IMG/VR virus record: IMGVR_UViG_3300010354_013855
Span: 1-22,146 of that record
From: a virus
DNA: 22,146 bases
Direction: 5' to 3' (one strand)
Under the pieces are notes generated by a model. The model saw only the letters and a list, made by a program, of their open reading frames with translations. It had not been told where the DNA came from and ran no database searches. Made by a program: the position numbers and the translations under genes. Positions 2,462-19,984 of the stretch are shown piece after piece (the first letter of the stretch is position 1; each line of letters begins with the position of its first letter).

Positions 2462-3615
2462 ATCCACGAGACTTCCTGACCAATCGTAATTTTTGTCCAA
2501 TGCCCTGGACTGGATTGATGTATAACTTTGATGGCTCAGTCAAGAATTGCATTCGCAGTGCTGGCAAAATTGGAAACATACAACACACACCTATCCAAGA
2601 TATCTTGCAAGGTCCAAAGAATATCCAAACTCAACAAAGCATGCTGGACCGACAACCGGGGTCAGATTGTTACACCTGTTATGATCTCGAGCAAGACAAA
2701 TCAGGATTCGATATCATCAGCGATAGGGTCTTTTATTTGCGCGAGCTCAAACAGCTACCCATGTCCACTTATCAACTGGGTCATCATGACCTGCACACCA
2801 TAGATATTCGATGGACCAATTTGTGTAATTTTTCTTGTGTGTATTGTAGCCCAGAATTCTCCAGCCGTTGGGCGTCTGAATTAAACATCAAGACAGCTGA
2901 ACCCACAGAACAACAGCGACAGGACTTTAAATCATATATTTTCAAACACGCCGCCCAATTAAAGCATGTGTATCTAGCAGGTGGCGAGCCATTGTTGATC
3001 AAAGAAAATCTTGAATTGTTGGATTTACTAAATCCAGACGTAAACCTACGAATCAATACCAATCTCAGCAAAGTAGACACACGCATATTCGAAAGGGTCT
3101 GTGAGTTCAAAAACGTTCATTGGACAGTAAGCGTAGAAACCCAGGCACATGAATTTGAATATATCCGGCATGGTGGTCGATGGCAAGACTTTTTGGATAA
3201 CCTTGACGTTATCGCCAATCTAGGTCACAAGATCACTTTCAACATGTTGCATTTCTTATTGAATTACAACAGCATATTCGACTGCGTGGATTTCTTGAGG
3301 CATCGCGGATTCCACGCCAATTCTTTTGTGATTGGAGCATTGCTTACCCCAGAATACCTAAACATTAGACATCTCCCAGAACATGTGTTACAATCAGTCA
3401 AGAAAGAACTGCAATCACGGATCAATCAAGCACCAGGTTATTTGTTAGAAGATAGTTACAAAAACATGCTGCGCTATATCGATCAACCAATGGAAAAAAA
3501 TCTTTCCGGATCGTTTTCTATGTTGGCACGACTGGATCAACGACGTGGACTCAACAGTTCCGAAATATTTCCGGAGCTATACAAACTTTTTAATCAAGGA
3601 AACTACCATGGGTAA
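2458..3615 (+). CDS. Radical SAM protein with N-terminal twitch-like Fe-S domain (second copy)
   Basis: The 385-residue protein repeats the architecture of the enzyme at 1011-1892. An N-terminal cysteine set (Cys13, Cys31, Cys71, Cys74) resembles a twitch auxiliary cluster. It is followed by the radical SAM motif CNFSCVYC (Cys123, Cys127, Cys130) and GGEP at 175-178. It is about 90 residues longer, with an extra C-terminal region after the barrel. The two proteins are clearly diverged, so they probably act on different positions or steps rather than being redundant. The start ATG overlaps the SDR stop by 4 bases. The last 8 bases overlap the start of uvsX, tying this accessory gene directly to the recombination genes. 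The reaction cannot be deduced from the sequence. Confidence 0.88.
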   Translation: MNPRDFLTNRNFCPMPWTGLMYNFDGSVKNCIRSAGKIGNIQHTPIQDILQGPKNIQTQQSMLDRQPGSDCYTCYDLEQDKSGFDIISDRVFYLRELKQLPMSTYQLGHHDLHTIDIRWTNLCNFSCVYCSPEFSSRWASELNIKTAEPTEQQRQDFKSYIFKHAAQLKHVYLAGGEPLLIKENLELLDLLNPDVNLRINTNLSKVDTRIFERVCEFKNVHWTVSVETQAHEFEYIRHGGRWQDFLDNLDVIANLGHKITFNMLHFLLNYNSIFDCVDFLRHRGFHANSFVIGALLTPEYLNIRHLPEHVLQSVKKELQSRINQAPGYLLEDSYKNMLRYIDQPMEKNLSGSFSMLARLDQRRGLNSSEIFPELYKLFNQGNYHG

Positions 3616-4669
3616 ACCATTTGACGTAAGCAAGTTCCGCAAGGAAATCACCAAAAGTATCGACGGATTATCAATCGGATTTAATGATCCCACCGACTGG
3701 ATTAGCACAGGCAACTATGCTCTCAACTACCTGATCTCAGGCGATTTCAACAGAGGTATTCCACTAGGCAAGGTCACTGTGTTCGCAGGTGAGTCAGGTG
3801 CAGGCAAGAGTTATATCTGCTCAGGCAACATCATCAAGAACGCACAAGAGCAAGGCATATTCGTAGTGTTGATTGATTCAGAAAACGCACTAGACGAGGA
3901 TTGGCTCAAAGCACTAGGTGTAGACACATCAGACAGCAAACTGCTGAAATTAAGCATGGCCATGATCGACGATGTGGCCAAGACCATTTCAACATTTATG
4001 GCTGATTACAAGGCCTTGCCCGACGGCGAGCGACCCAAGGTCATGTTTGTAATTGACAGTTTGGGCATGTTGCTCACTCCCACAGACGTGAACCAGTTTG
4101 ATGCAGGTGAGATGAAAGGTGACCTAGGTCGCAAGCCCAAAGCACTTACAGCCCTTGTGCGTAACTGTGTGAACATGTTTGGCAGTTATAACGTGGGCCT
4201 GGTATGTACCAATCACACCTACGCCAGCCAGGACATGTTTGATCCCGATGACAAGATCTCAGGTGGTCAAGGCTTTATCTATGCCAGCTCGATCGTGGTA
4301 GCCATGAAAAAGCTCAAGCTCAAAGAGGACGAAGATGGCAACAAGATCTCAGACGTGATGGGCATCCGATCAGCCTGCAAGGTCATGAAAACACGCTATG
4401 CCAAGCCCTTTGAAGGCGTGCAGGTCAAGATCCCATACGAAACAGGCATGAATCCCTACTCAGGACTCACTGACCTGGCCGAGAAGAAAGGCCTGCTCAA
4501 AAAGGATGGTAACAGGCTCATGTTTATCACTTCAGACGGTGAGATCATCAAGCACTTCCGCAAAGGCTGGGAAGCCAACGAAGATGGATGCTTGGACAAA
4601 CTCATGGTAGACTTCCAAAATCAGAAAACAGAGGTAAGTAACTCTGAAACTGATTCGGAGGAAGCCTAA
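3608..4669 (+). CDS. uvsX: UvsX-like RecA-family recombinase
   Basis: This 353-residue ATPase has a Walker A, GESGAGKS (residues 61-68), and a Walker B, VMFVID (145-150), in the RecA/UvsX layout. An N-terminal segment lies before the ATPase core, and the C-terminal tail ends in an acidic stretch (ETDSEEA). UvsX forms filaments on single-stranded DNA and drives strand invasion for recombination-dependent replication and repair. I chose ATG 3608 rather than an in-frame start 63 bases upstream: the downstream ATG follows an AAGGAA ribosome binding site, begins the conserved MGKPFDVSKF segment and leaves only an 8-base overlap with the radical SAM gene. The stop overlaps the next start as TAATG. 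The pairing with a UvsY-like gene two positions downstream strengthens the assignment. Confidence 0.93.
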   Translation: MGKPFDVSKFRKEITKSIDGLSIGFNDPTDWISTGNYALNYLISGDFNRGIPLGKVTVFAGESGAGKSYICSGNIIKNAQEQGIFVVLIDSENALDEDWLKALGVDTSDSKLLKLSMAMIDDVAKTISTFMADYKALPDGERPKVMFVIDSLGMLLTPTDVNQFDAGEMKGDLGRKPKALTALVRNCVNMFGSYNVGLVCTNHTYASQDMFDPDDKISGGQGFIYASSIVVAMKKLKLKEDEDGNKISDVMGIRSACKVMKTRYAKPFEGVQVKIPYETGMNPYSGLTDLAEKKGLLKKDGNRLMFITSDGEIIKHFRKGWEANEDGCLDKLMVDFQNQKTEVSNSETDSEEA

Positions 4670-4908
4670 TGCCCCATCTAGCAAGTGAAATCTGGAGTGA
4701 ACTCAAACGCTATATCAACACCGTGGATCGTGACGAAGCAGCCGAGACCTTGGTCAGTGTGCTGGTAGATCATGACATCGATGCTGATGACATCCGTGAT
4801 GCTTTCAAAGGCGATGGTGAAATCAAACGCGCCTTGACCAGCTATTTGGATGATGCTGATGAGGAAGCAGAGGAATATGACGAAGAATACGAAGATGACG
4901 AGGACTGA
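4669..4908 (+). CDS. Small acidic protein between uvsX and uvsY
   Basis: A 79-residue protein starts with a predicted helical domain (SEIWSELKRYINTVDRDEAA, residues 6-25), continues through VLVDHDIDADDIRDAFKG and IKRALTSYLDD, and ends in a strongly acidic tail from residue about 60 (DADEEAEEYDEEYEDDED). Small proteins of this kind occur near uvsX in T4-like phages of aquatic bacteria, as far as I remember, but I know no assigned function. A strong GGAGGAA ribosome binding site precedes the TAATG junction with uvsX, and its own stop overlaps uvsY as TGATG. The acidic tail could mimic DNA or contact a recombination protein, as the gp32 tail does; this is inference. Confidence 0.85.
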   Translation: MPHLASEIWSELKRYINTVDRDEAAETLVSVLVDHDIDADDIRDAFKGDGEIKRALTSYLDDADEEAEEYDEEYEDDED

Positions 4909-5360
4909 TGTGGTATAGCCGCGTAGTAGCCAATCTTGGTTGTATCCCCGACTTCATAGCTCATTACGAGCGTGAGCTAGAGGATGCCAAACGAGATTGT
5001 CGCATAGGTGGCATAGTGGAGAAAAACATCTCTGCGCTGCCGGGCATAACCGAGCAACGATTCAACCAGCTTCAAGAGATCGAAGCTGTGTTGAACTATC
5101 TCAACATCCAACTGCGCAAGATACGCCGTAAACACTTCCAAAAATATCTGGAAGCCTATGCCCGCGCACTCACCAGCCGAGACGCAGAAAAGTATGTGGA
5201 TGGTGAAGATGAAGTGATTGATTTTGAGACTATTATTAACGAAGTGGCTCTGCTGCGCAATCGCTGGCTGGGCATCATGAAGGGCTTGGATACCAAACAG
5301 TGGCAGATGGGCCATATCGTTAGACTGCGTACAGCAGGCATGGAAGATATCACTGTATGA
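4908..5360 (+). CDS. uvsY: UvsY-like recombination mediator
   Basis: The 150-residue protein is largely helical, with a basic central segment (LNYLNIQLRKIRRKHFQKYL) and a conserved end (LRNRWLGIMKGLDTKQWQMG, then HIVRLRTAGMEDI). Its length is close to T4 UvsY (about 137 residues), and its position two genes after uvsX fits. UvsY binds single-stranded DNA and loads UvsX onto gp32-coated strands. The N-terminal WYSRVVANL and the SRDAEKYVDGEDEVIDF stretch match what I recall of UvsY-like proteins in marine T4-like phages. Direct similarity to T4 UvsY is weak by eye, so the call rests on family memory plus context. Start and stop overlap neighbouring genes (TGATG and ATGA). Confidence 0.75.
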   Translation: MWYSRVVANLGCIPDFIAHYERELEDAKRDCRIGGIVEKNISALPGITEQRFNQLQEIEAVLNYLNIQLRKIRRKHFQKYLEAYARALTSRDAEKYVDGEDEVIDFETIINEVALLRNRWLGIMKGLDTKQWQMGHIVRLRTAGMEDITV

Positions 5361-5893
5361 AGCCCGGCAAGATCTTGTTAGATATACCACAACAGTACGC
5401 CAGTGTCAACGATCGCCATAGGCGCGAATGGTTCATAAACGATTTGGCGCAGCATCATGGTTGGCGGTGTGGTGCCGAGATTGGCGTGCGGTTTGGTCGT
5501 ACTCTTTTTTGCCTGTTAGACAACAACCCAAATTTAGCAATGTGGGCTGTAGACAAAGACATCACACAGTTTCACAATCAAGATGTGCAAAATCGTTATG
5601 GCACCAGACTCAATGTGCTTTCCGGCATGAGTTGGGATATGGCAGCGCATGTGCCGGATCAAAGTCTTGATTTTTTCTTTATAGATGCAGGACATGGCTA
5701 CAAAAGCGTGATCCGTGATCTAGTGGCCTGGGTGCCGAAACTACGCCCTGATGGGTGGTTCATAGGTCATGACATCAACTTTCCTGCCGTAAATCAAGCC
5801 GTAGTCGATCATTTTGGACATTATTGTGTAGGTCCTGACAATGTGTGGTTCTTGCCTCCCACACATGATGTAAGCATGCTGATAAAATTATAA
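5357..5893 (+). CDS. Class I SAM-dependent methyltransferase (family 24-like)
   Basis: The 178-residue protein has a Rossmann-type SAM-binding start, AEIGVRFGRT (residues 40-49), an acidic residue at the end of the second strand (AVDKD, 64-68), and FFFIDAGHGYKSVIRDL (106-122) followed by LRPDGWFIGHDI. This fits the Methyltransf_24 group, which often acts on sugars or small molecules in glycan clusters. It is the last gene of the plus-strand recombination operon, overlapping uvsY by 4 bases. Its stop overlaps the convergent transferase gene by 6 bases. A second protein of the same type is encoded at 13748-14326. The methyl acceptor is unknown; glycan is likely from the neighbourhood. Confidence 0.8.
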   Translation: MKPGKILLDIPQQYASVNDRHRREWFINDLAQHHGWRCGAEIGVRFGRTLFCLLDNNPNLAMWAVDKDITQFHNQDVQNRYGTRLNVLSGMSWDMAAHVPDQSLDFFFIDAGHGYKSVIRDLVAWVPKLRPDGWFIGHDINFPAVNQAVVDHFGHYCVGPDNVWFLPPTHDVSMLIKL

Positions 5894-6724
5894 CAGCAAT
5901 CTAGCCAAGGGCTCACCAGTTTCAATCTCCGGTATCAGCCACTCTGTGTGTGCCAACTGCTCTAACCACTGTTCACGATCTGGCATCACAGGGTTTTCTA
6001 TCTGTGAAAAATCAAGATTGGCCACAGGCGCAGCCAAACTGTTTGCACCCACAAACGCAGGCACACCACTCAAGATGGCCTGTGTGCCAGGACCGCTGTT
6101 GTGGTTGATCACGGCCCAGGCATCCGCCAAACAGCGATCATAATCAAAGCCATCATAGGTACCTGGCACAGGCTGTGGACTCTGTATCCAGCAACCGGGT
6201 ATGTGGGCTATGCGCTGCCTGGGATGTGGACGTATGATCAAAGGGCGGCTGGTATGCTGCCGTAGTCGAGCTGCGGTTTCTGTGAGCCAGGCCACAGCAG
6301 GTGGTTGACCAGCCCATTGCTCACTATCGTCTCGCTGCATGGCGATGACCACATTGACGCCACGTTCACGCCAGGGTTTCAACCTTAGTCTCAACTGAGC
6401 AGCACGACCAGGCCGTATCTCGCCTGGATAACAGCCCTGCCAAGTACCATTCATGCCCAATTTCCAGGTAAGGTCACGCTGTATCATGCCAACTTCGGCC
6501 ACGATCACAGGTCGATTACTAGCACGAAACAACTGCCATATCTGTTGATTGGATCGCATGCGCCCATGCCATAGCACGCTCCAGATCACCGCCACATCTG
6601 CGCTGCTGTCCATACTGGCATGTGCGATTCCCAGCCTATCTAGTCCTGCTCGGATGGCTGCAAACACAGGTGGGCTATTGAGCGCACCATATTGATCAAA
6701 TATACCCACACGTAGATTTGGCAT
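5888..6724 (-). CDS. GT-B-like capsule/glycan transferase paralogue 1
   Basis: This 278-residue protein has the second-half layout of GT-B-type capsule transferases (Kdo or glycerophosphate transferase-like): PWRERGVNVVIAMQRDD, RPLIIRPHPRQR, and then the acceptor/donor loop NHNSGPGTQAILSGVPAFVG. It ends with a family-specific tail, MPDREQWLEQLAHTEW followed by PEIETGE. The closest paralogue in the window is the gene at 10053-10991 (shared PWR..G..V....QRD, RPHP and MPDREQWL). The gene stands alone on the minus strand between plus-strand blocks. Its ATG lies 11 bases from the ATG of the divergent glycosyltransferase gene, so any promoter must overlap that neighbour. An AAGG ribosome binding site is possible about 9 bases upstream. 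The specific sugar is unknown. Confidence 0.72.
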   Translation of the reverse strand: MPNLRVGIFDQYGALNSPPVFAAIRAGLDRLGIAHASMDSSADVAVIWSVLWHGRMRSNQQIWQLFRASNRPVIVAEVGMIQRDLTWKLGMNGTWQGCYPGEIRPGRAAQLRLRLKPWRERGVNVVIAMQRDDSEQWAGQPPAVAWLTETAARLRQHTSRPLIIRPHPRQRIAHIPGCWIQSPQPVPGTYDGFDYDRCLADAWAVINHNSGPGTQAILSGVPAFVGANSLAAPVANLDFSQIENPVMPDREQWLEQLAHTEWLIPEIETGEPLARLLL

Positions 6725-6730
6725 TAAATA
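6723..6730 (+). promoter_or_regulatory. Possible T4-type late promoter element (ATTAAATA)
   Basis: ATTAAATA matches 6 of 8 positions of the T4 late consensus TATAAATA, including the TAAATA core. It ends 5 bases before the ATG at 6736, the same spacing as the two perfect matches at 12539-12546 and 19245-19252. It overlaps the start codon of the divergent gene. No Shine-Dalgarno sequence is seen before 6736. Confidence 0.45.
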
Positions 6731-6735
6731 ACCTT

Positions 6736-7542
6736 ATGAAATATTCAGTAGTTACCACATTCCATAACCCTGGATACAAACATTATGGCCAGCGCATGAT
6801 ACAGAGCTGGTTAGCATCCTGGCCCGAACAAGTTGACTTGGTAGTTTATGCTGAAAACTGTGAGGTCCAGGAAGCTGGCCACAATCTTGTGATTCGCGAT
6901 ATCTCAATATGTCAAGACCTAACAGATTTCAAAAATAAATGGCAAGATGTACCGCGAGCTAACGGTGATGTCACTGATGATCCTGTGCGCAGCCAGCGCA
7001 GAGATTCAGGTAAAGGATTCAAATGGGACGCTGTAAGATTCGCACACAAGGTCTACAGCATCTTTCATTGTGCCCGGAATCATGCTACTGATTGGCTGAT
7101 CTGGATGGATGCAGACATGGTGTGCCACAGCCCAGTAACACTATCTGATCTAGATCGCCTGTGTCCGCCAGACCGTGATTTGTGTTTTTTAGGTCGTCAA
7201 GGCAAATACTCAGAATGCGGTTTGTATGCCATGAACTTGACCAGCCAACCTGTGATAGCTTGGTTGGAAGATTTCCAAAGATTTTATGATAATGCAGAAC
7301 AAGGAATCTTTACCTTGGCTGAGTGGCATGACAGTTTTGTTTTTGATGCTGTGAGGACTAGACATCAACTGCGTGAATTAGATTGGGCAGCAGGCATAAT
7401 AACCGGAGAAGGCCATCCTTTGATCAACAGTGAATGGGGAGCTTATCTTGATCATCTCAAAGGAGCCCGCAAAGATCTTGGACGTAGCAAGCGCACTGAT
7501 CTACGAGTAAGACGAACAGAAACTTATTGGACCCAACAGTGA
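6736..7542 (+). CDS. GT-A-type glycosyltransferase with DAD motif
   Basis: The 268-residue protein starts with a GT-A-like strand (MKYSVVTTFHN) and carries the metal/nucleotide-sugar motif WLIWMDADMV with DAD at 125-127. It is followed by LGRQGKYSECGLYAMNL and a WHDSFVFDAV segment that probably forms the active site. It should transfer a sugar from a nucleotide donor. I place the start at ATG 6736; a TTG at 6718 in the same frame would overlap the divergent gene and adds residues unlike a GT-A start. The stop overlaps the next gene as GTGA (7539-7542). Acceptor and sugar are unknown. Confidence 0.78.
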   Translation: MKYSVVTTFHNPGYKHYGQRMIQSWLASWPEQVDLVVYAENCEVQEAGHNLVIRDISICQDLTDFKNKWQDVPRANGDVTDDPVRSQRRDSGKGFKWDAVRFAHKVYSIFHCARNHATDWLIWMDADMVCHSPVTLSDLDRLCPPDRDLCFLGRQGKYSECGLYAMNLTSQPVIAWLEDFQRFYDNAEQGIFTLAEWHDSFVFDAVRTRHQLRELDWAAGIITGEGHPLINSEWGAYLDHLKGARKDLGRSKRTDLRVRRTETYWTQQ

Positions 7543-8345
7543 ATTGGTTATTCTTGGACAAAAACAACAGCGACCAGTACATACAGATGTTGGCTCGTGG
7601 ATGTGGTGTTGAACCCACCGATATGACTCAGTGGCAATATGAGCAAAACAGTGAACCATTGGTGCTACGTGGAATCATGAAGCACAAGATCATCAAACGA
7701 TGCTGGCAGGATGGTAGATGGTTCTGGTACATGGATTCGGGATATATGGGCAACAGGATCAGCACCAACAATCCAGGAGGCTGGAAACACTGGCATCGTG
7801 TAGTGCCAAACGACCTACAACACGGGACCGTGTTGCCAAGATCCAGTGATAGATTTGAACGATTGCGAATACGCATCCAACCACGACAATATGGTCGCGA
7901 TATTTTATTGGTGGCACCAGATCACAAGCCCTGCGCATTTTATGGTATAGATCGTGACACATGGTTGACTCAAACCCAAGAGCAGATACGCCAACACACT
8001 GATCATCCAGTCATAATAAGAGAGCGCAGCGTGGATAGACGCAGCCGCAAACAAAATGATTTAGCTGCGCCCAAGAATGTGCATGCTGTGGTCACTTTTA
8101 ACAGTGTGGCCGCAACTGAAGCAGTGCTGGCTGGTGTGCCTGCTTTTGTGTTGGCTCCCAGCAATGCTGCTATACCTGTGGCCAACACCGATTTATCACT
8201 GATAGATAAACCTTGGTTCGCGGAACCTGAGCAAGTGCATGCCTGGGCCTGTCATCTAGCTTATGGCCAATTTCACATACATGAATTACAAGATGGCACG
8301 GCAGCACGCATCTTGACACAAACAAAGGAGATGTTGGATGTATGA
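7539..8345 (+). CDS. GT-B-like glycan transferase paralogue 2
   Basis: A 268-residue member of the six-copy family. It shares FWYMDSGYMGN with paralogues 5 and 6, and RDILLVAPDHKPC with other copies. It also has HPVIIRERSVDRRSRK, the loop TFNSVAATEAVLAGVPAFVL, and the C-terminal signature LAYGQFHIHELQDGTAARIL. I chose GTG 7539, which overlaps the previous stop as GTGA and begins like paralogue 5 (NWLFLDKN..., then LARGCGV against FAEGCGA). A TTG 12 bases upstream is the alternative. The family resembles capsule polysaccharide transferases with a GT-B fold. The classical RPHP motif is replaced here by a basic RERSVDRRSRK stretch, so donor binding may differ from paralogues 1 and 4. Confidence 0.7.
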   Translation: MNWLFLDKNNSDQYIQMLARGCGVEPTDMTQWQYEQNSEPLVLRGIMKHKIIKRCWQDGRWFWYMDSGYMGNRISTNNPGGWKHWHRVVPNDLQHGTVLPRSSDRFERLRIRIQPRQYGRDILLVAPDHKPCAFYGIDRDTWLTQTQEQIRQHTDHPVIIRERSVDRRSRKQNDLAAPKNVHAVVTFNSVAATEAVLAGVPAFVLAPSNAAIPVANTDLSLIDKPWFAEPEQVHAWACHLAYGQFHIHELQDGTAARILTQTKEMLDV

Positions 8346-8983: not shown

Positions 8984-10060
8984 ATGTATCTAGTATTGAA
9001 TCATGATGAAGTAGTAACTGGGTTAGCTAAAAAAATCATAGCTCGGTCGTTGCGCGGTCGTGAACCGGATTGGTCGACCTCCACTGCGTATCTTCGCAAG
9101 ATGGATAAAAAGTTCTTGAAAACTGGCTTGATAGAAATCAATTTTGCTACCTTGAATGAACTGCTGATGCAAGACACCAAAAGTTACAAGGAAAGTTTGA
9201 CGAAAGAGTACAAGAAAAGATATCGTGGTCTCATCAGCTGGTTAGCTGATAGATATGATCTTCTTGATATACCCAACTCCCAACTAACAAGTCTTTATCT
9301 ACATGACCCCGCAGTTGGCTTTGTCAAAGCCATGAGCCAGCACATGACTCAAGATCCTGTATGGAAAGTGGCAGGCGAAATCATTCCAGATGATCAACCT
9401 GTGCTGATTAGGGGTAACGCACCTGTGCATCATGCTCTACTAAGTCATCGTATTCAAAGTCAATTGCCTTTTTGGTTTGTGGATACTGGGTATACCAATT
9501 TCCTTACAGGCAAAAAAACTTGGCATCGACTTGTGGCCGATCATATACACCATATACCTCCTAACACATATTTCCCACCAGATAGATTGACGACTTTACC
9601 TAGTTTGCCACAACCATGGCGTGATCAAGGCCGCGACATCTTGGTAGTTGAAAACAGTGATAAGCATTATCAAATGTTTGGTACCACTTTGTCTGCCTGG
9701 CGACAAGGTGTCAAGGAAACACTCAGCAAACTCACAGACAAACCTATCAAATTCCGCCCTAAATCAGACGATATCAAAAATCGTGATAGTCTATATGAAC
9801 ATCTGACTCAGTCAGATTATTACTGTGTGATAACAGATGCCAGCGCGGCCGCGATAGAAGCAGTTTGGGCAGGCATACCCATAATCACCTTAAACACACA
9901 CATCAGCCGACCAGTGGCTCGCACCAGTCTAGAGGACATAAATGATCTGTATCGAGGGCCCATAGGTGATTGGCTGTGCGCTCTTTCGTATAGCCAATTT
10001 ACTCAAAGAGAAATGTTTGATGGAACTGCCCTGAGATTGATGGAGCAATATTATGTTTGA
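8984..10060 (+). CDS. GT-B-like glycan transferase paralogue 3 with N-terminal extension
   Basis: At 358 residues this is the longest copy of the six-member family. The first 100 or so residues, rich in Lys/Asp and helical in character (LTKEYKKRYRGLISWLADRY), have no counterpart in the other copies and could be a separate acceptor-binding or interaction domain. The rest follows the family: PFWFVDTGYTNF, GRDILVVENSDKHY, the basic KPIKFRPKSDDIKNR stretch, the ITDASAAAIEAVWAGIPIIT loop, and the tail LSYSQFTQREMFDGTALRLM. The stop overlaps paralogue 4 by 8 bases. Its C-terminal signature is closest to paralogue 6 (12533-11697). I infer a glycosyl or phosphoglycosyl transferase. Confidence 0.68.
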   Translation: MYLVLNHDEVVTGLAKKIIARSLRGREPDWSTSTAYLRKMDKKFLKTGLIEINFATLNELLMQDTKSYKESLTKEYKKRYRGLISWLADRYDLLDIPNSQLTSLYLHDPAVGFVKAMSQHMTQDPVWKVAGEIIPDDQPVLIRGNAPVHHALLSHRIQSQLPFWFVDTGYTNFLTGKKTWHRLVADHIHHIPPNTYFPPDRLTTLPSLPQPWRDQGRDILVVENSDKHYQMFGTTLSAWRQGVKETLSKLTDKPIKFRPKSDDIKNRDSLYEHLTQSDYYCVITDASAAAIEAVWAGIPIITLNTHISRPVARTSLEDINDLYRGPIGDWLCALSYSQFTQREMFDGTALRLMEQYYV

Positions 10061-10991
10061 TGTGGTGGTGTATCTCAGTAGCCTACCGCGTATAGCAGAT
10101 CGCAATCGCAAGGTGGAGGTTCTAGAAGCTTTTGCTGCCGGCGCCAGATCCCAAGGAGCTTCGGTGTTGATACAAACTCAGCATCAAGTAGTAGATTGCA
10201 AGTTGGCGGTGATCCTGGGTTGGGTAGGTACCAAGATACGAGGATCCCATATACAGCTACGGCGAGATGTGATAGATCATCAACGTAAGACCGGCAATCA
10301 CGTGATGCCCATAGACAGCAGTTGTTTCAAATTTGTGGATCAAGACAGCGTTTTCTTGAGGTACAGCCTAGATGGCGTGTTCTATAACAAAGATATCTAT
10401 GCCAACGCTGATAGCGACGATACCAAATGGTGTGAAATACAGCACAAGTTTGGACTTGAATTACAACCTTGGCGTACACATGGAGACCATGTGCTGGTAT
10501 GTTTGCAACGCGATGGAGGTTGGAGCATGAAAGGTACAGACATGTCGGAATGGACCTATCGTACCGTGCATCAACTGAGAGATCTTACCCAAAGACCAAT
10601 TTTGGTTCGCCCACACCCAAAGTATCGCATGGATCTGTCAGGCTTATCTGATATACCCAATGTAAAACAAAGCATGGATGGATCAAAGTTGCAACAGGAT
10701 CTGAGGGGCGCCTGGGCTGCTGTATTTTGTAACAGCAGCAGTAGTGTTGCAGCAGTATTGGCTGGTATACCAGTGTTTGCCGATGATGATGATTGTGTGG
10801 CCTGGGATGTGGCCAATCATGATTTACAACATATCGAAGATCCTGCCATGCCTGATCGGGAGCAATGGTTGAATGATCTATGCGCAGCTCATTGGACTGA
10901 TCATGACAGCATCACAGGAGAGATCTACAAAAAATTTAGACCTTATTTAATAGATCCCATGCCAGACCCGATTTCATCTCAGGCTCTGTAA
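10053..10991 (+). CDS. GT-B-like glycan transferase paralogue 4
   Basis: A 312-residue copy closest to paralogue 1: shared LQPWRTHGDHVLVCLQRDG, RPILVRPHPKYR, FCNSSSSVAAVLAGIPVFAD and MPDREQWLNDL. RPHP plus the Ser-rich loop are typical of capsule/Kdo-type GT-B enzymes. The C-terminus extends about 15 residues beyond the family end (LIDPMPDPISSQAL) and runs 56 bases into the convergent gene on the minus strand. The start ATG at 10053 overlaps the previous stop. The extension may be neutral read-through into the neighbour after a rearrangement that placed the two genes tail to tail. Confidence 0.7.
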   Translation: MFDVVVYLSSLPRIADRNRKVEVLEAFAAGARSQGASVLIQTQHQVVDCKLAVILGWVGTKIRGSHIQLRRDVIDHQRKTGNHVMPIDSSCFKFVDQDSVFLRYSLDGVFYNKDIYANADSDDTKWCEIQHKFGLELQPWRTHGDHVLVCLQRDGGWSMKGTDMSEWTYRTVHQLRDLTQRPILVRPHPKYRMDLSGLSDIPNVKQSMDGSKLQQDLRGAWAAVFCNSSSSVAAVLAGIPVFADDDDCVAWDVANHDLQHIEDPAMPDREQWLNDLCAAHWTDHDSITGEIYKKFRPYLIDPMPDPISSQAL

Positions 10992-11700
10992 ACTGACAAT
11001 AACTCAAATGTTTCATCCAGGATTCTTTACAATCGGGATCTATGTTTGGAAGATCATCAATCAATTCTATACCAGAAGTGCAAACTTGGCAAGCTGCGCT
11101 AGGACCTAGGCTTACTACAGGAATGTCATGTAGTACCGAGTCTACTGCACACGAACTTATGTAAGTGACCACGGCGTTGATATTATTACGCAACATATCT
11201 GTAAAACGATCAGCTTTTGATCTGATTGATCGTGATTTTGGACGTTGACGTATTTCAATGTCTCGATCAGTAAATTGTTTTACAATTCTTTGTGTCTGAT
11301 CTAGCCATAGATCCGGACTGCCTAAACCATAGTGCAGGCATTGTTTGTCGTCGGGAGGAACTATAAGTATTTTTTTCCCGCGATCAATGGTGCTTGTATC
11401 AATTTTTATTTTGTCTAATCTATCTCTTGGACGCATGATGATTGGGCCACAGGCATGAATCTGATTTTTCAAGACTCTGAGATAGTTCTTTTTTTTGTAG
11501 TTGCCAAAATAACCAGTGTCTATATAGTACCAATCTAATCCATATTTTTTTGCCTGCGCTATGCATGCATTGGTAGTGATACCACTAAAAATCATTGGCC
11601 ACTTGGTATTTTGATTGATACCTGCCAGGTCAACCCATGTGGCTCCACACCCTTCTGCAAAGTGTTTTATTTTTTCACGGTTTTGGAAAGCTAGTATCAT
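10936..11700 (-). CDS. GT-B-like glycan transferase paralogue 5
   Basis: The 254-residue protein is a compact family copy: FAEGCGATWVDLAG near the start, DWYYIDTGYFGNYKKKN, KKILIVPPDDKQCLHYG, the basic DIEIRQRPKSRSIRSK stretch, VVTYISSCAVDSVLHDIPVV, and LSYCQFTEPEMKSGLAWDLL. I chose ATG 11700, which forms a 4-base ATGA overlap with the upstream copy; a TTG at 11721 is possible but gives a larger overlap. The gene seems more AT-rich than its neighbours. Its 3' end overlaps the convergent paralogue 4. Four copies (2, 3, 5, 6) share the D-[ST/N]-GY motif absent from copies 1 and 4, so the family has two subgroups. Confidence 0.68.
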   Translation of the reverse strand: MILAFQNREKIKHFAEGCGATWVDLAGINQNTKWPMIFSGITTNACIAQAKKYGLDWYYIDTGYFGNYKKKNYLRVLKNQIHACGPIIMRPRDRLDKIKIDTSTIDRGKKILIVPPDDKQCLHYGLGSPDLWLDQTQRIVKQFTDRDIEIRQRPKSRSIRSKADRFTDMLRNNINAVVTYISSCAVDSVLHDIPVVSLGPSAACQVCTSGIELIDDLPNIDPDCKESWMKHLSYCQFTEPEMKSGLAWDLLNKV

Positions 11701-12533
11701 TGCTCGGTTAGGATGCGCCAAGCAGTGCCATCGGACATCTCGGCGAAAGTGAATTGACTATAACTTAGGTGTCTTAACCAAGCGTTTCTTTCATCTTCTG
11801 ATGGAAAGTAAGGTTTTTCAATATCGCTGATGTTACGAGAGCATATTTCTTGGGCTGCATTGGGTCCCAGAGTGATGGCAGGTTTGCCCAACATCACTGC
11901 CTCAACAGCCGCCACTGAGCTGAAAGTAATCAAACAATGAACATCATTGGCCAAAGTTTGCTGCATGGTGTCCACTTTGCTGCGTTCTTCTCTATTGCGT
12001 TTTAGGCGTACTTCAATTGGACGGTCGGTATATTTTTTGATCTCAGCAATGGTATCTTCAATCCAGCGGGTTTGATTGATATCCCACATGCTGAAACTTT
12101 TTTCGCTAGGCGGTGCCAGCAATATTTTGCGTCCTGGACTGTACGGCTTGAGCATGTACTGTAACTGTTGCAATCTTTTGGGATGACGATTTTGTATAGG
12201 ACGACAATCATGCACATTGTTTTTGATGATACGGAAATGTGTTTTCTTACTGACATTACCAATGTACCCATTGTCTATGTAATAAAAGGTACGTCCGGTG
12301 GCCCAGCAGTATTTGACTGATTTGGTCAATTTCATACCTCTGATACACCAAGGATGGGAAGCTGGTAGATGCCAGGCCTCTTGGCTGCTCATCACTATGC
12401 CATCACAACCCTTGCTGAAACTTTTGGCAAACACACCTTGACGGCGATCTGAGGGATGATAATCTAACTTGCGATCTATACACAACACCTGTGTGGGATA
12501 TGCGGTACGATTCAATATGATTTCAGGTTTCAT
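11697..12533 (-). CDS. GT-B-like glycan transferase paralogue 6
   Basis: A 278-residue family copy with TFYYIDNGYIGNVSKKTHF, GRKILLAPPSEKSFSMW, PIEVRLKRNREERSK, the LITFSSVAAVEAVMLGKPAI loop, and the signature LSYSQFTFAEMSDGTAWRIL. The N-terminal 40 residues are specific to this copy, but GVFAKSFSKGCDG matches the GCG segment of copies 2 and 5. The ATG at 12533 is preceded, after 5 bases, by a perfect TATAAATA on the same strand, with no clear Shine-Dalgarno sequence between them. It is the first gene of a two-gene unit with paralogue 5. The transferred sugar is unknown. Confidence 0.7.
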   Translation of the reverse strand: MKPEIILNRTAYPTQVLCIDRKLDYHPSDRRQGVFAKSFSKGCDGIVMSSQEAWHLPASHPWCIRGMKLTKSVKYCWATGRTFYYIDNGYIGNVSKKTHFRIIKNNVHDCRPIQNRHPKRLQQLQYMLKPYSPGRKILLAPPSEKSFSMWDINQTRWIEDTIAEIKKYTDRPIEVRLKRNREERSKVDTMQQTLANDVHCLITFSSVAAVEAVMLGKPAITLGPNAAQEICSRNISDIEKPYFPSEDERNAWLRHLSYSQFTFAEMSDGTAWRILTEQ

Positions 12534-12538
12534 AATGA

Positions 12539-12546
12539 TATTTATA
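12539..12546 (-). promoter_or_regulatory. T4-type late promoter element (perfect TATAAATA)
   Basis: On the minus strand TATAAATA is followed by TCATT and then the ATG at 12533. This is the exact T4 late consensus, read by RNA polymerase with the phage gp55 sigma factor. T4 late transcripts begin about 6 bases after the element, which here is the A of the start codon. It lies in the 27-base gap between two minus-strand genes. Confidence 0.72.
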
Positions 12547-15665: not shown

Positions 15666-15675
15666 GACTGGGTAT

Positions 15676-16476
15676 TTACGCTATCTTGACACCAATGTCT
15701 GCCATCAACTGTGCTATATTTTCCCCTCTGTCAGGCAGTAGATCTTTTAGAAAGAAATGCACAAAATGTGCCTGTGGTAACTGGTCGTCCCGGATGGCTT
15801 TATACAAAGCATTCCAGTGCCAGCTCATGTTTTGTACAGGCATGTGTGTGTGCTTGATCCACCAGTTCAACAACATCTGATCAGTGCTCCATTTAAAATA
15901 GCCCACACCGTCAATGAAGTCTTGAAACTCGGGCCTGGCCAAGAATTCAGCTGGGGTCTGGCCATTAAGAAAAGGTGCAAATAATTTGGTATTCAATAGT
16001 ATCATGCCCATGTTGTAGAATTCAGCTCCATGATCGTTCCAGCGCCAATCCACGTCCGTGAGAGGTCCAAAAGCAGATTTTGAATATTTGGTTATCTTGC
16101 CTAAATGTTTTTTGGTACAAGGGAGATCTCTTTCCGCGACCACTCCCATGGCCCTATCGGGCTGCAACTGTTCAAAGATATCCGGTGCCTGTTCTCGCAC
16201 AAAAATATCACTGTCCACAATGGCTATCTGATCATATTGGTCCACATAGGCAAAGGCATTTTCTTTTTCAAATATAGGCAGATATCCCAGTCTAGCAATG
16301 GCTTCTGTGCTGCGTCCGGAACGTTGTGGATTGGGACATATTCTCAACACAGGTTCGCGCTGTATGATATGCGTGATATCATGGCGATCACAATATCGTG
16401 CCACGCTGGCCACACAGGTGTCATACAACACACTGGGCTTGCCCACATAAACTTGATATATCATGCGCTTGGTCAT
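15676..16476 (-). CDS. GT-A-type glycosyltransferase with DSD motif
   Basis: The 266-residue protein begins with MIYQVYVGKPSVLYDTCVAS, has IAIVDSDIFV with the metal-binding DSD at residues 88-90, and later GAEFYNMGMILLNTKLF, WSTDQMLLNWW and HFVHFFLKD. The last His-x-x-His is typical of GT8-like enzymes, which place a late His on the metal. The gene overlaps the GT25 gene by 4 bases (ATGA). Ten bases separate its stop from the next ATG, the widest internal gap in this operon. Sugar and acceptor are unknown. Confidence 0.78.
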   Translation of the reverse strand: MTKRMIYQVYVGKPSVLYDTCVASVARYCDRHDITHIIQREPVLRICPNPQRSGRSTEAIARLGYLPIFEKENAFAYVDQYDQIAIVDSDIFVREQAPDIFEQLQPDRAMGVVAERDLPCTKKHLGKITKYSKSAFGPLTDVDWRWNDHGAEFYNMGMILLNTKLFAPFLNGQTPAEFLARPEFQDFIDGVGYFKWSTDQMLLNWWIKHTHMPVQNMSWHWNALYKAIRDDQLPQAHFVHFFLKDLLPDRGENIAQLMADIGVKIA

Positions 16477-17051: not shown

Positions 17052-18478
17052 TTGTCTACCATGTCCTGAAATACCTTTTGATTTTTAAGATCGCCTTTGC
17101 CTGTGAAAAATTTCATGTCACGTTTGGCACCCCAACTACACCATGATATGTCGATGTTTTCAAACTCTATGCTGCTGAATATATGTTTGAGTTGGTGCTG
17201 GTCCATGAACCAATAAGCACCTTTGCTGAAACCTCGCAGCAGACCAGTACGAAATCTATGCCTAAATTCTTGTCCTGCTTCACCTGTGCCTAAACTGATG
17301 CAACTGGCTATCAAGGTATCTGGATCTTTGGGTTTGCGCATGCCGCGAGGAGTCTCAGTCAATGCTTCAAATTCTTCTTGATCAAAAGTGTTACACAATA
17401 TGGTATCAGCATCTATTTGTAGCACGTATTGATCAGATTCAAACAAGTCGGCCATGCGCATGAACCTGGCACAACTAAAGTATATTTTTTCACGCATCTG
17501 ATCATGATCATCAGTTTTGAGTATCTGAGTGTTGCGATACATGCGTGGCGCGCTGGTGTTGAGTGGAATGCCTTGTATGAATTCTTTGGTTAGTATCTCG
17601 TGACTATAGGTTACTCTGTCATGAGTGTATAGATTATCACACAGTTGATCATAGCACATGAGATGCACATGTACACTCAACCAATCAATCTGTTGAACTA
17701 TGCTGTGTATGAGTGGAATGACCATGCGCTGATAATATTCGGTATCACAGCTCACGTAGATCACATGTTTGCCTTGAGGTTTATCTCCCAATAATTCTGG
17801 CAGTTCAAAAGTCTGTTCGCAATACTCAGTCAAAGCTCTTTCATCATGCCAGACTTCAGCTTGCGGCGAGTCCTTATATTCTCGAAAGCAAGGTGTGCCT
17901 AGTGTATAGTGCAGCAATTTGGCATGGGGATTTGGCCCTAGTTCGTCTGGCAACCAGTTCCATTCTATGGGCAATTCACCTATACGCTGATCTTGCAACC
18001 AGCTAAAACGATGTAGATAGCTGCCTTCCTGCTGTTGAACGAATGTTGGTTTCAATTTGCGATTGGGGAACGCACCGCAATTCCATAGAATCACGCTGCT
18101 CCAATTCTTGCGTGGATAGTCTGGGTTTTTGGCACCCATATATTTGAACCGTTGTCGGGTCACATAATCATGTTTGACCACCATGACATCCTTGTTGTAT
18201 TCACGCAGATTCCAAAGTTTCACAATGTCGTCGCGTAGCACCATGTCACCATCTATGTATATGGCCCAACCATTGAATCCCATGAGATGTGGCACCAGGA
18301 ATCGAGAATATATAAACTGATTTGATCCATCATGATGTGTTTCAACATAATCTTGCAAAAGATTCAAACACAATGGATGTATGGTCACTGGTTCAGAAGC
18401 ATGTCGTATGATGCTGTTCACGCACACGTGAAACGCTATTGCTTCTTTGGGATCATATCCTATGAATATGGGTATCAT
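17039..18478 (-). CDS. Tandem double-domain GT-A glycosyltransferase
   Basis: This 479-residue protein contains two GT-A domains in one chain. The first (about residues 1-230) starts IPIFIGYDPKEAIAFHVCVN and has YIDGDMVL with DGD at 76-78. It continues with WNCGAFP, WNWLPDELGP and KLLHYTLGTPCF, a GT8-like late His included. The second (about 237-479) restarts with HVIYVSCDTEYYQRMVIPLI and has YVLQIDADTIL with DAD at 356-358. Both DXD motifs look intact, so the protein may add two sugars in sequence or one domain may bind the acceptor. The ATG at 18478 overlaps the previous stop as ATGA. Confidence 0.82.
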   Translation of the reverse strand: MIPIFIGYDPKEAIAFHVCVNSIIRHASEPVTIHPLCLNLLQDYVETHHDGSNQFIYSRFLVPHLMGFNGWAIYIDGDMVLRDDIVKLWNLREYNKDVMVVKHDYVTRQRFKYMGAKNPDYPRKNWSSVILWNCGAFPNRKLKPTFVQQQEGSYLHRFSWLQDQRIGELPIEWNWLPDELGPNPHAKLLHYTLGTPCFREYKDSPQAEVWHDERALTEYCEQTFELPELLGDKPQGKHVIYVSCDTEYYQRMVIPLIHSIVQQIDWLSVHVHLMCYDQLCDNLYTHDRVTYSHEILTKEFIQGIPLNTSAPRMYRNTQILKTDDHDQMREKIYFSCARFMRMADLFESDQYVLQIDADTILCNTFDQEEFEALTETPRGMRKPKDPDTLIASCISLGTGEAGQEFRHRFRTGLLRGFSKGAYWFMDQHQLKHIFSSIEFENIDISWCSWGAKRDMKFFTGKGDLKNQKVFQDMVDKWRP

Positions 18479-19239
18479 CTGCGCTCGATATCATCTTCTA
18501 CACAGCGTGAGCCATACTGTATCTCTACCACACGCAGGGCATGCTCAGTTTCATTGCTGAGCTGATGCCATTGAGACTTGCAGATATGTATGTGCTCAAA
18601 TTGTTCGTAGGTACCCAACAAGTCTAGGTCTGTGCTGCGATCCAGGCTGTAAACAGTGGCCCGTCCTTCAGCTACAAACCAGTGCTCGGCTCTATCACCA
18701 TGCCGTTGCATGCTGAGCCGTTGGCCCGGTTCTACCACCAGTTCTTTGACCTTGACCTGTTGGCCTTGTTCATGCAGCACACGATAGTATCCCCAGTTTC
18801 TCGGAGTCTTGGGTGCTTTCCATTCTGTGAGTATCCAGGAGCTGGAGTTCTTTTTGTGGTCGCCGCCTATGCCAAACTGGAACTCAAGATTGGGATCCTG
18901 CACAGTCATTTCGGGTATGTTTACATCAGTGCGGTCGCCACCATTGGCGAATATGATGCGATCTTGTGGATAACTCTGGCGCACCATCCAGATGGCGTGT
19001 CTGGCTGAGCCATCAGAGTCATCAAAGTCAATGACGAAATCCACACCCGACATGGCTCTCAAGATAGCAGCACGTTCCATCAAGGGCATGAATGCCCGAC
19101 CCTTTTTGCGGGCCAGCCATTGATCTGAATTCACACCCACTACCAGGATGTCTCCCAGTTTCTTGGCAGCTTGAATGTAAGCAATGTGTCCGCTGTGTAC
19201 GGGATCAAACCCGCCTGTGACCAGCACGATAGTTTTCAT
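18475..19239 (-). CDS. Nucleotidyltransferase-cupin (phosphomannose isomerase-like) fusion
   Basis: The 254-residue protein joins two enzymes of sugar activation. The N-terminus is a cytidylyltransferase-like domain (TGGFDPVHSGH, HxGH at residues 15-18; GVNSDQWLARKKGR; FANGGDR), like the adenylyl/cytidylyltransferase half of RfaE/HldE. The C-terminus (about 146-254) is a cupin like the isomerase end of ManC-type proteins: RNWGYYRVL, VVEPGQRLSMQRHGDRAEHW, then HICKSQWHQLSN. In the metal motif the usual H-x-H reads H180-G-D182. I prefer ATG 19239 over ATG 19245, because it begins MKTIVLVTGGFDP and lies 5 bases after a perfect TATAAATA. It heads the minus-strand operon. It would supply an activated sugar; which sugar is unknown. 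Confidence 0.83.
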   Translation of the reverse strand: MKTIVLVTGGFDPVHSGHIAYIQAAKKLGDILVVGVNSDQWLARKKGRAFMPLMERAAILRAMSGVDFVIDFDDSDGSARHAIWMVRQSYPQDRIIFANGGDRTDVNIPEMTVQDPNLEFQFGIGGDHKKNSSSWILTEWKAPKTPRNWGYYRVLHEQGQQVKVKELVVEPGQRLSMQRHGDRAEHWFVAEGRATVYSLDRSTDLDLLGTYEQFEHIHICKSQWHQLSNETEHALRVVEIQYGSRCVEDDIERR

Positions 19240-19244
19240 GCGCA

Positions 19245-19252
19245 TATTTATA
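19245..19252 (-). promoter_or_regulatory. T4-type late promoter element (perfect TATAAATA)
   Basis: Minus-strand TATAAATA, followed by TGCGC and the ATG at 19239. The spacing is identical to the element before 12533. It probably drives the whole minus-strand operon down to 12561. A second late-type core, on the plus strand, lies 18 bases away, so this is a bidirectional late promoter region. Confidence 0.72.
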
Positions 19253-19270: not shown

Positions 19271-19278
19271 AGTAAATA
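19271..19278 (+). promoter_or_regulatory. Possible T4-type late promoter element (AGTAAATA)
   Basis: AGTAAATA keeps the TAAATA core of the T4 late consensus and ends 4 bases before the ATG at 19283. It is a weaker match than its minus-strand partner at 19245-19252, but this is the only space available for a plus-strand promoter here. Confidence 0.45.
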
Positions 19279-19282
19279 CCGC

Positions 19283-19984
19283 ATGGATATTGTCAACTGT
19301 GCCTGTGTGATACATGGTCCCGCCTATGGTTGGCACTATGTGGAACGATTACATGGCATGCTCAAACGCAATCTTAGCTCGCAAGTACGCATGCATGTGT
19401 TCACTGAAGCCAACAGACCTGTGCCCGCGCACATGACAAAACATGTTTTGCAAGACTGGACAGTTCATGGTCCCAAAAAAGCCTGGTGGTACAAACTACA
19501 AATGTTTGATCCCAGCCATCATCGGGGTCCTTTGTTGTATTTTGACCTAGATACCGTGATAGTGAACAACATAGACTGGATCACGCATCAAGATCTCACA
19601 TTATTCTGGACCATCAAAGATTTCCAACACCTGTATCGTCCTACCAGCACAGATCTCAACAGCAGTGTCATGTGGTTTGATACTGTGCGTTACGATTATG
19701 TTTGGCAGGAGGTGCTGCGGCGCGGCATAGACAAAGTGATAGGACAATACAGAGGCGATCAAGACTATCTGTCGGAAGTGATAAATCACGGTCATAGACG
19801 ATATCTACCGCGCATCCGCAGCTGGCGCTGGCAGTGTTGGGACGGTGGTTATGATTTTAAAAAACGCAAATGGCGTGAACCCGGCGCAGGAACTGATATC
19901 ACCGACACAGATGTGATGATATTCCACGGCAAACCCAAACCCGATGAAGTATCGGATCCTGTGATACAGCAATATTGGCAATGA
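19283..19984 (+). CDS. GT-A-type glycosyltransferase with DLD motif
   Basis: The 233-residue protein has an N-terminal strand with VIHGPAYGWHYVERL, the segment KKAWWYKLQMF, and PLLYFDLDTVIV with the metal-binding DLD at residues 88-90. It continues with SSVMWFD, YRGDQDYLSEVI and a final MIFHGKPKP, where the late His fits the metal site of GT-A retaining enzymes. Similar proteins are frequent in T4-like phages and in bacterial glycan clusters. Its stop overlaps the GT4 start as ATGA. Sugar and acceptor are unknown. Confidence 0.8.
   Translation: MDIVNCACVIHGPAYGWHYVERLHGMLKRNLSSQVRMHVFTEANRPVPAHMTKHVLQDWTVHGPKKAWWYKLQMFDPSHHRGPLLYFDLDTVIVNNIDWITHQDLTLFWTIKDFQHLYRPTSTDLNSSVMWFDTVRYDYVWQEVLRRGIDKVIGQYRGDQDYLSEVINHGHRRYLPRIRSWRWQCWDGGYDFKKRKWREPGAGTDITDTDVMIFHGKPKPDEVSDPVIQQYWQ

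Follow-up and report, generated by a model that had tools for sequence, protein, structure and literature searches.

One uncultured clade of jumbo phages very probably practices systematic leaderless late transcription from T4-type late promoters, as judged from where the late element TAAATA stands relative to start codons. In these genomes, the distance from TAAATA to ATG has a sharp peak with its mode at 5 bases. The leaderless state of the corresponding mRNAs is predicted with good confidence from this promoter spacing, and we infer where the transcripts begin, how they are translated, and what the arrangement is for.

Late promoter elements abut start codons in the window

The window, i.e., the whole stretch of DNA analyzed (22,146 nucleotides), is recorded as a 22-kb fragment and comes from an uncultured T4-like jumbo phage. 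Its genes for UvsX and a UvsY-like mediator (Table 1) identify the phage as T4-like. Among named phages, Sinorhizobium phage Phosso has the nearest UvsX (69%); next come the UvsX proteins of Vibrio phage 2.275.O, Agrobacterium phage Atu_ph07, CBB, GAP32, and others, all of them jumbo phages. Closer UvsX relatives are numerous in IMG/VR (81-95% among the 80 loci kept), and some IMG/VR relatives of the window lie on contigs of >300 kb. No tRNA was found in the window. Six paralogous proteins of ~260 to 360 aa, sharing 21-35% identity, are encoded almost adjoining one another between 5888 and 12533, and three of them had no family match when searched (5888-6724 and 11697-12533 in Pfam, 7527-8345 in PHROGs). 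This region is rich in sugar-transferase and methyltransferase genes and is perhaps a glycan-synthesis island.

Table 1. Late promoter elements and genes of the window (gap, number of bases between the element and the ATG)
Feature	Position	Strand	Remarks
TATAAATA late-promoter element	12539-12546	-	followed by TCATT, then ATG 12533-12531; gap 5
TATAAATA late-promoter element	19245-19252	-	followed by TGCGC, then ATG 19239-19237; gap 5
ATTAAATA element	6723-6730	+	followed by ACCTT, then ATG 6736; gap 5
AGTAAATA element	19271-19278	+	followed by CCGC, then ATG 19283; gap 4; divergent to the element at 19245-19252
TAAATA, weaker candidate	15673-15678	-	7 nt before ATG 15665
UvsX gene	3608-4669
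UvsY-like mediator gene	4908-5360
Six paralogues	5888-6724, 7527-8345, 8984-10060, 10053-10991, 10936-11721, 11697-12533	both
Gene of the ~280-aa paralogous family, no Pfam match	11697-12533	-	start MKPE.. conserved in nearest orthologues
Cytidylyltransferase/mannose-6-P isomerase-cupin fusion gene	18475-19239	-	Pfam PF01467 and PF01050
Conserved gene, function not assigned	6736-7542	+	N-terminus MKYxVxTTF conserved
Gene without assigned function	19283-19984	+	3′ of the gap-4 element

TAAATA occurs eight times in the window, counting both strands: in four copies, 4 or 5 nt separate the end of the element from a gene's ATG, in a fifth 7 nt do, and three lie away from starts. The copy at 7 nt is a weaker candidate because its TAA doubles as the stop codon of the gene at 15676-16476. 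Placements at gap 4-8 thus number 5, against 0.05 expected from dinucleotide shuffles of the upstream regions. When single deviations from the octamer were allowed, the window contained two perfect copies plus two variants with a TAAATA core, and the octamer alone was not above its chance frequency in the window; hence, its placement is the significant feature that needs explanation. A first-pass annotation of this DNA had described four elements 4-5 bases ahead of an ATG, at starts without a clear Shine-Dalgarno site. Their positions and spacings were confirmed, and a Shine-Dalgarno motif is absent at all four starts. The same annotation took each start to be fixed by a conserved N-terminus, which is the case for 12533, 19239, and 6736, but not for 19283, where the first residues of the orthologues differ. 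Between 19237 and 19285, two divergent late elements on opposite strands sit inside the 43 bp that separate two start codons, leaving no room for a leader on either side.

A spacing peak throughout the clade

The distance between TAAATA and start codons was compared between 11 related IMG/VR contigs (~2.0 Mb, three of them held out; the clade totals also include the window) and six cultured T4-like phages, of which T4, Syn9, RaK2, and PA5oct were covered whole, and Atu_ph07 and Phosso by 400 kb each. Such a genome-wide scan, which the first-pass annotation had proposed, yields a peak at 5 in the clade contigs that is absent from the six cultured phages. More specifically, the clade distances for ATG starts are bimodal, with a peak at gaps 4-8 (mode 5, n = 182), a valley at 9-15 (n = 20), and a hump at 16-32 (n = 243). 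The corresponding counts for the six cultured phages are 12, 28, and 222, i.e., a hump only (clade versus cultured, gap 4-8 versus 16-32; Fisher P = 3e-28). ORF calling relied on a simple script in which every ATG of an ORF's first third was a candidate, and single cases may be wrong; this fault also affects the shuffles and the cultured controls, yet these show no peak.

Every clade contig tested, the held-out ones included, showed the peak at 5, flanked by shoulders at gaps 4 and 6-8. The held-out contigs, fetched once the rule was fixed, gave counts at gaps 4-8/9-15/16-32 of 34/1/28 (G025), 10/4/35 (G021), and 15/1/18 (G023). Observed counts exceeded a contig's own shuffles in each of the first eight clade contigs, G002 (51% GC) had 16 placements versus 0.8 expected, and none of the six cultured phages tested exceeded its shuffles. 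Likewise, when all hexamers were scanned by position at distances 2 to 14, TAAATA at gap 5 was the most enriched hexamer other than Shine-Dalgarno motifs (P = 1e-34). Its overlapping shifts and the variant TAAGTA came next, and the cultured set had no comparable enrichment. Host-type promoters were rejected as generally leaderless, since TATAAT at gap 6 was just mildly raised (12 versus 3.5, P = 3e-4 before correction); the effect is thus mostly confined to the late element and its TAAGTA variant. Perfect octamers at gap 5 numbered 20/52 in the first 160 related loci.

The peak supports the earlier proposal that late mRNAs are systematically leaderless, but for a part of them: gap 4-8 accounts for 182 of the 425 TAAATA-linked ATG starts (~43%, the denominator being gaps 4-8 plus 16-32), and the others, tail sheath included, are leadered. 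Among seven genomes compared, the near element precedes the genes for a virion structural protein and an HNH-like 113-aa protein in all seven, for another virion protein in six, for the terminase large subunit in five, and for a tail-tube-like protein in four. It was found in single or few cases ahead of portal, head-tail adaptor, baseplate wedge, and tail spike genes. In most genomes, the elements of the tail sheath and main tail tube genes are leadered, and a Shine-Dalgarno site precedes the G004 major capsid gene. This distribution is suggestive, but not proof, of a split between low-copy (near) and high-copy (leadered) proteins.

Sequence signs of probable transcription from the A of AUG

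The T4 late TATA box spans -13 to -6, its first two bases being -13/-12 (PMC2988020); by this numbering, with the +1 position transferred from T4, gap 5 puts +1 on the A of AUG. Independently of this numbering, 49 of 51 starts at gap 5 have a pyrimidine directly ahead of the ATG, compared with 138 of 297 Shine-Dalgarno genes in the same phages (P = 9e-13); in the full set, 79 of 84 do. RNA polymerase start sites prefer a pyrimidine at -1 and a purine at +1, and the pyrimidine found here is the pattern as for a putative Y(-1)A(+1) start on the A of AUG. Most ATGs at gaps 6-8 are likewise preceded by a pyrimidine, and transcription may still start on the AUG or at most 3 nt ahead of it. The first-pass view that RNA starts exactly on the AUG therefore applies strictly at gap 5, gaps 4 and 6-8 implying a leader of 0-3 nt.

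The start codons themselves differ between the two classes. ATG outnumbers GTG/TTG by 182:10 at gap 4-8 and by 243:73 at gap 16-32 (P = 3e-8), a contrast that is inflated by the larger number of false starts at longer gaps. Shine-Dalgarno 4-mers accompany 18 of 182 starts at gap 4-8 versus 161 of 243 at gap 16-32, their scarcity at the short gaps being partly a matter of geometry, since the promoter element sits where they would lie. The empty valley at 9-15 fits a rule by which genes have either no leader or one with room for a Shine-Dalgarno site. A conserved -35 element is lacking: in neither gap class did the 20 bases 5′ of the core contain a strongly conserved position.

Conservation among orthologues and the late sigma factor

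TAAATA-N5-ATG is present at the cytidylyltransferase gene in most of 80 orthologous loci, with varied upstream flanks, and many of the loci without TAAATA carry a GAGG(C)G motif ahead of the same first residue. At about the same place, orthologues of gene 6736 carry either TAAATA or, at a gap of ~6, TAAGTA; TAAGTA replaces TAAATA just 5′ of the match start in L418, L419, L422, L432, and others. Together with the enrichment of TAAGTA at gap 5, this indicates that the late element of the clade tolerates G at this position. In contrast to these conserved sites, those at 12533 and 19283 have no counterpart element in their orthologues (10 in the case of 19283), so that 12539-12546 is a local promoter and promoters of this kind come and go locally. 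In several relatives (L116-L119, L139, and L152), the promoter is enclosed by the inverted repeat GCAGATAAATATCTGC, whose end lies at the ATG. The repeat site lies ~16 bases before the cytidylyltransferase ATG, and the repeat might serve as an operator or fold into a hairpin that encloses the element.

Homologues of gp55 (matches to phrog_12791/phrog_234) were identified in G001, G002, G006, G021, G024, and G025; the window fragment stops short of the gp55 region. Leadered relatives have gp55 homologues too, indicating that one sigma system serves both layouts. Searching for gp45 with PF02916 recovered T4's own gp45 only and missed even that of Syn9, the model being too narrow. On both the UvsX (95/97) and TerL (89/84) trees, the short-gap trait represents one gain, and the clade stands apart from PA5oct, whose TerL is the nearest among cultured phages, and from Phosso.

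The clade also encodes bS21 (L183:14907-15137, L251:5274-5495, and L263:111-332 on the minus strand; L214:17844-18056 on the plus strand). In two genomes, a leadered TAAATA lies 27-28 nt upstream of this gene, and bS21 may be a late gene. Phage bS21 was rejected as the cause of the leaderless trait, as it is found in the leadered phages Atu_ph07 and Phosso and in Vibrio phage 2.275.O as well. Relatives of bS21 were too weak to assign a host, the best matches (58-62%) coming from proteobacterial MAGs labelled Burkholderiales, Neisseriaceae, and Proteobacteria.

Discussion

We propose that host RNA polymerase, together with a phage gp55-type sigma factor, would begin RNA on the A of AUG at gap 5 and within 3 nt of it at gaps 4 and 6-8. 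Translation would probably proceed by leaderless initiation, in which the 5′-terminal AUG is bound by the 70S ribosome, or by the 30S subunit with IF2, independently of Shine-Dalgarno pairing. Leaderless translation is also the more tolerant of kasugamycin. Within the clade, the layout systematically covers a large share of the late genes (terminase, portal, adaptor, minor virion proteins, and glycan-synthesis genes); leaders are retained by the genes for the major capsid protein, the tail sheath and, in most genomes, the main tail tube. Holding low-copy products at a low, uniform rate is a plausible use. A more far-reaching version appears doubtful to us, namely that the late program is split under one sigma factor into leaderless mRNAs for low-copy and packaging proteins and Shine-Dalgarno mRNAs for capsid and sheath, with ribosomes maybe shifted to leaderless initiation late in infection, perhaps via the phage's own bS21.

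Several other explanations of the spacing were weighed. The elements might add late transcription while the main translation comes from read-through polycistronic mRNAs, leaderless mRNAs being a minor by-product. Such read-through would suit the ~44% of gap 4-8 starts (54 of 123) that lie within 60 nt of the end of a same-strand upstream gene, as well as the site at 12533, which lies within a minus-strand gene run. We nevertheless consider it unlikely, because the remaining 56% have no close same-strand gene end upstream, three of the four window sites lie at divergent junctions, and a by-product would not yield a peak at 5, a pyrimidine at -1, and an empty valley at 9-15; some gap 4-8 genes may also be translated from read-through mRNAs. 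If TAAATA five bases ahead of the ATG served translation rather than as a promoter, as an unstructured A/T-rich stretch recognized by the ribosome, this would account for its occupying the ribosome-binding position, where it stands in for the Shine-Dalgarno motif. However, the same genomes also carry TAAATA 16-32 nt upstream beside Shine-Dalgarno motifs, other permutations of four A and two T show no peak except those overlapping TAAATA, the element matches the T4 late promoter in phages that have a gp55 gene, and a translation signal does not predict avoidance of gaps 9-15, all of which makes this reading very improbable.

True late promoters could also have been paired with the wrong ATG, such that transcription starts inside the gene or an internal leadered codon is used. 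We find this hard to credit, given that orthologues without the element keep a conserved N-terminus at the same Met, that the TerL start of the clade aligns with residue 1 of Phosso TerL, and that gap 4-8 has a strong preference for ATG. The probability that chance or composition produced the pattern in A/T-rich, compact genomes, for instance through TAA stops just 5′ of starts, is negligible. Although TAAATA is common in some clade genomes, stop-codon overlap covers 17 of 123 gap 4-8 cases, and such an artifact is rejected by the shuffles, by reversed and permuted hexamers, by removal of stop codons, by the held-out contigs, and by the six cultured phages, several of which are A/T-rich, as well as by the excess in G002 despite its GC content.

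Leaderless transcription from T4-type late promoters is thus the reading we prefer. It would mean that the mode of translation can switch when a promoter element is moved by ~15 bases at dozens of genes in one lineage. It also offers a gene-start rule for the clade, by which TAAATA 4-8 nt ahead of an ATG marks the start; gene callers that seek Shine-Dalgarno sites may pick wrong starts in these genomes. Since relatives without the trait exist, the purpose of leaderless mRNAs is testable in this phage group.

T4 late transcription is a textbook system, and its promoters (gp55/gp33/gp45) have the same TATAAATA octamer, no conserved -35, and a gp55-type sigma factor; leadered late genes with the same element are also found in the clade. 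In T4, however, the element lies well upstream with a Shine-Dalgarno leader, and 0 T4 starts have gaps of 4-8, versus 182 in the clade. The T4-related jumbo phages CBB and GAP32 have ATAAATA ahead of structural genes (PMC5259590), that is, the same motif family in related phages with a gp55 homologue, and a pattern count revealed no gap-5 excess in CBB. RaK2, Atu_ph07, Phosso, and PA5oct have leadered elements only, unlike the clade.

Leaderless genes are likewise known elsewhere. They occur in Deinococcus-Thermus with a -10 element adjacent to the ORF (PMC12340547) and in other bacteria (PMC3160421), where the mRNA starts on or near the AUG; as in the clade, the promoter abuts the ORF and there is no Shine-Dalgarno site. 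The leaderless phage message of lambda cI (PMC9031893) begins at the AUG, as predicted here, but cases of this type are isolated genes that do not form a genome-wide late layout. A paper on AR9 mentions in passing the frequent absence of leaders from phage transcripts, with reference to an E. coli ribosome study (PMC5312081). A search of openly accessible papers turned up no description of systematic leaderless late genes in T4-like phages, and the reviews and genome papers covered are likewise silent on them. Both building elements, the T4-type late promoter and the leaderless gene, were already known, and what is new is their clade-wide combination: bacterial leaderless genes use host sigma factors, whereas the clade would use a phage late sigma factor and has Shine-Dalgarno leaders elsewhere.
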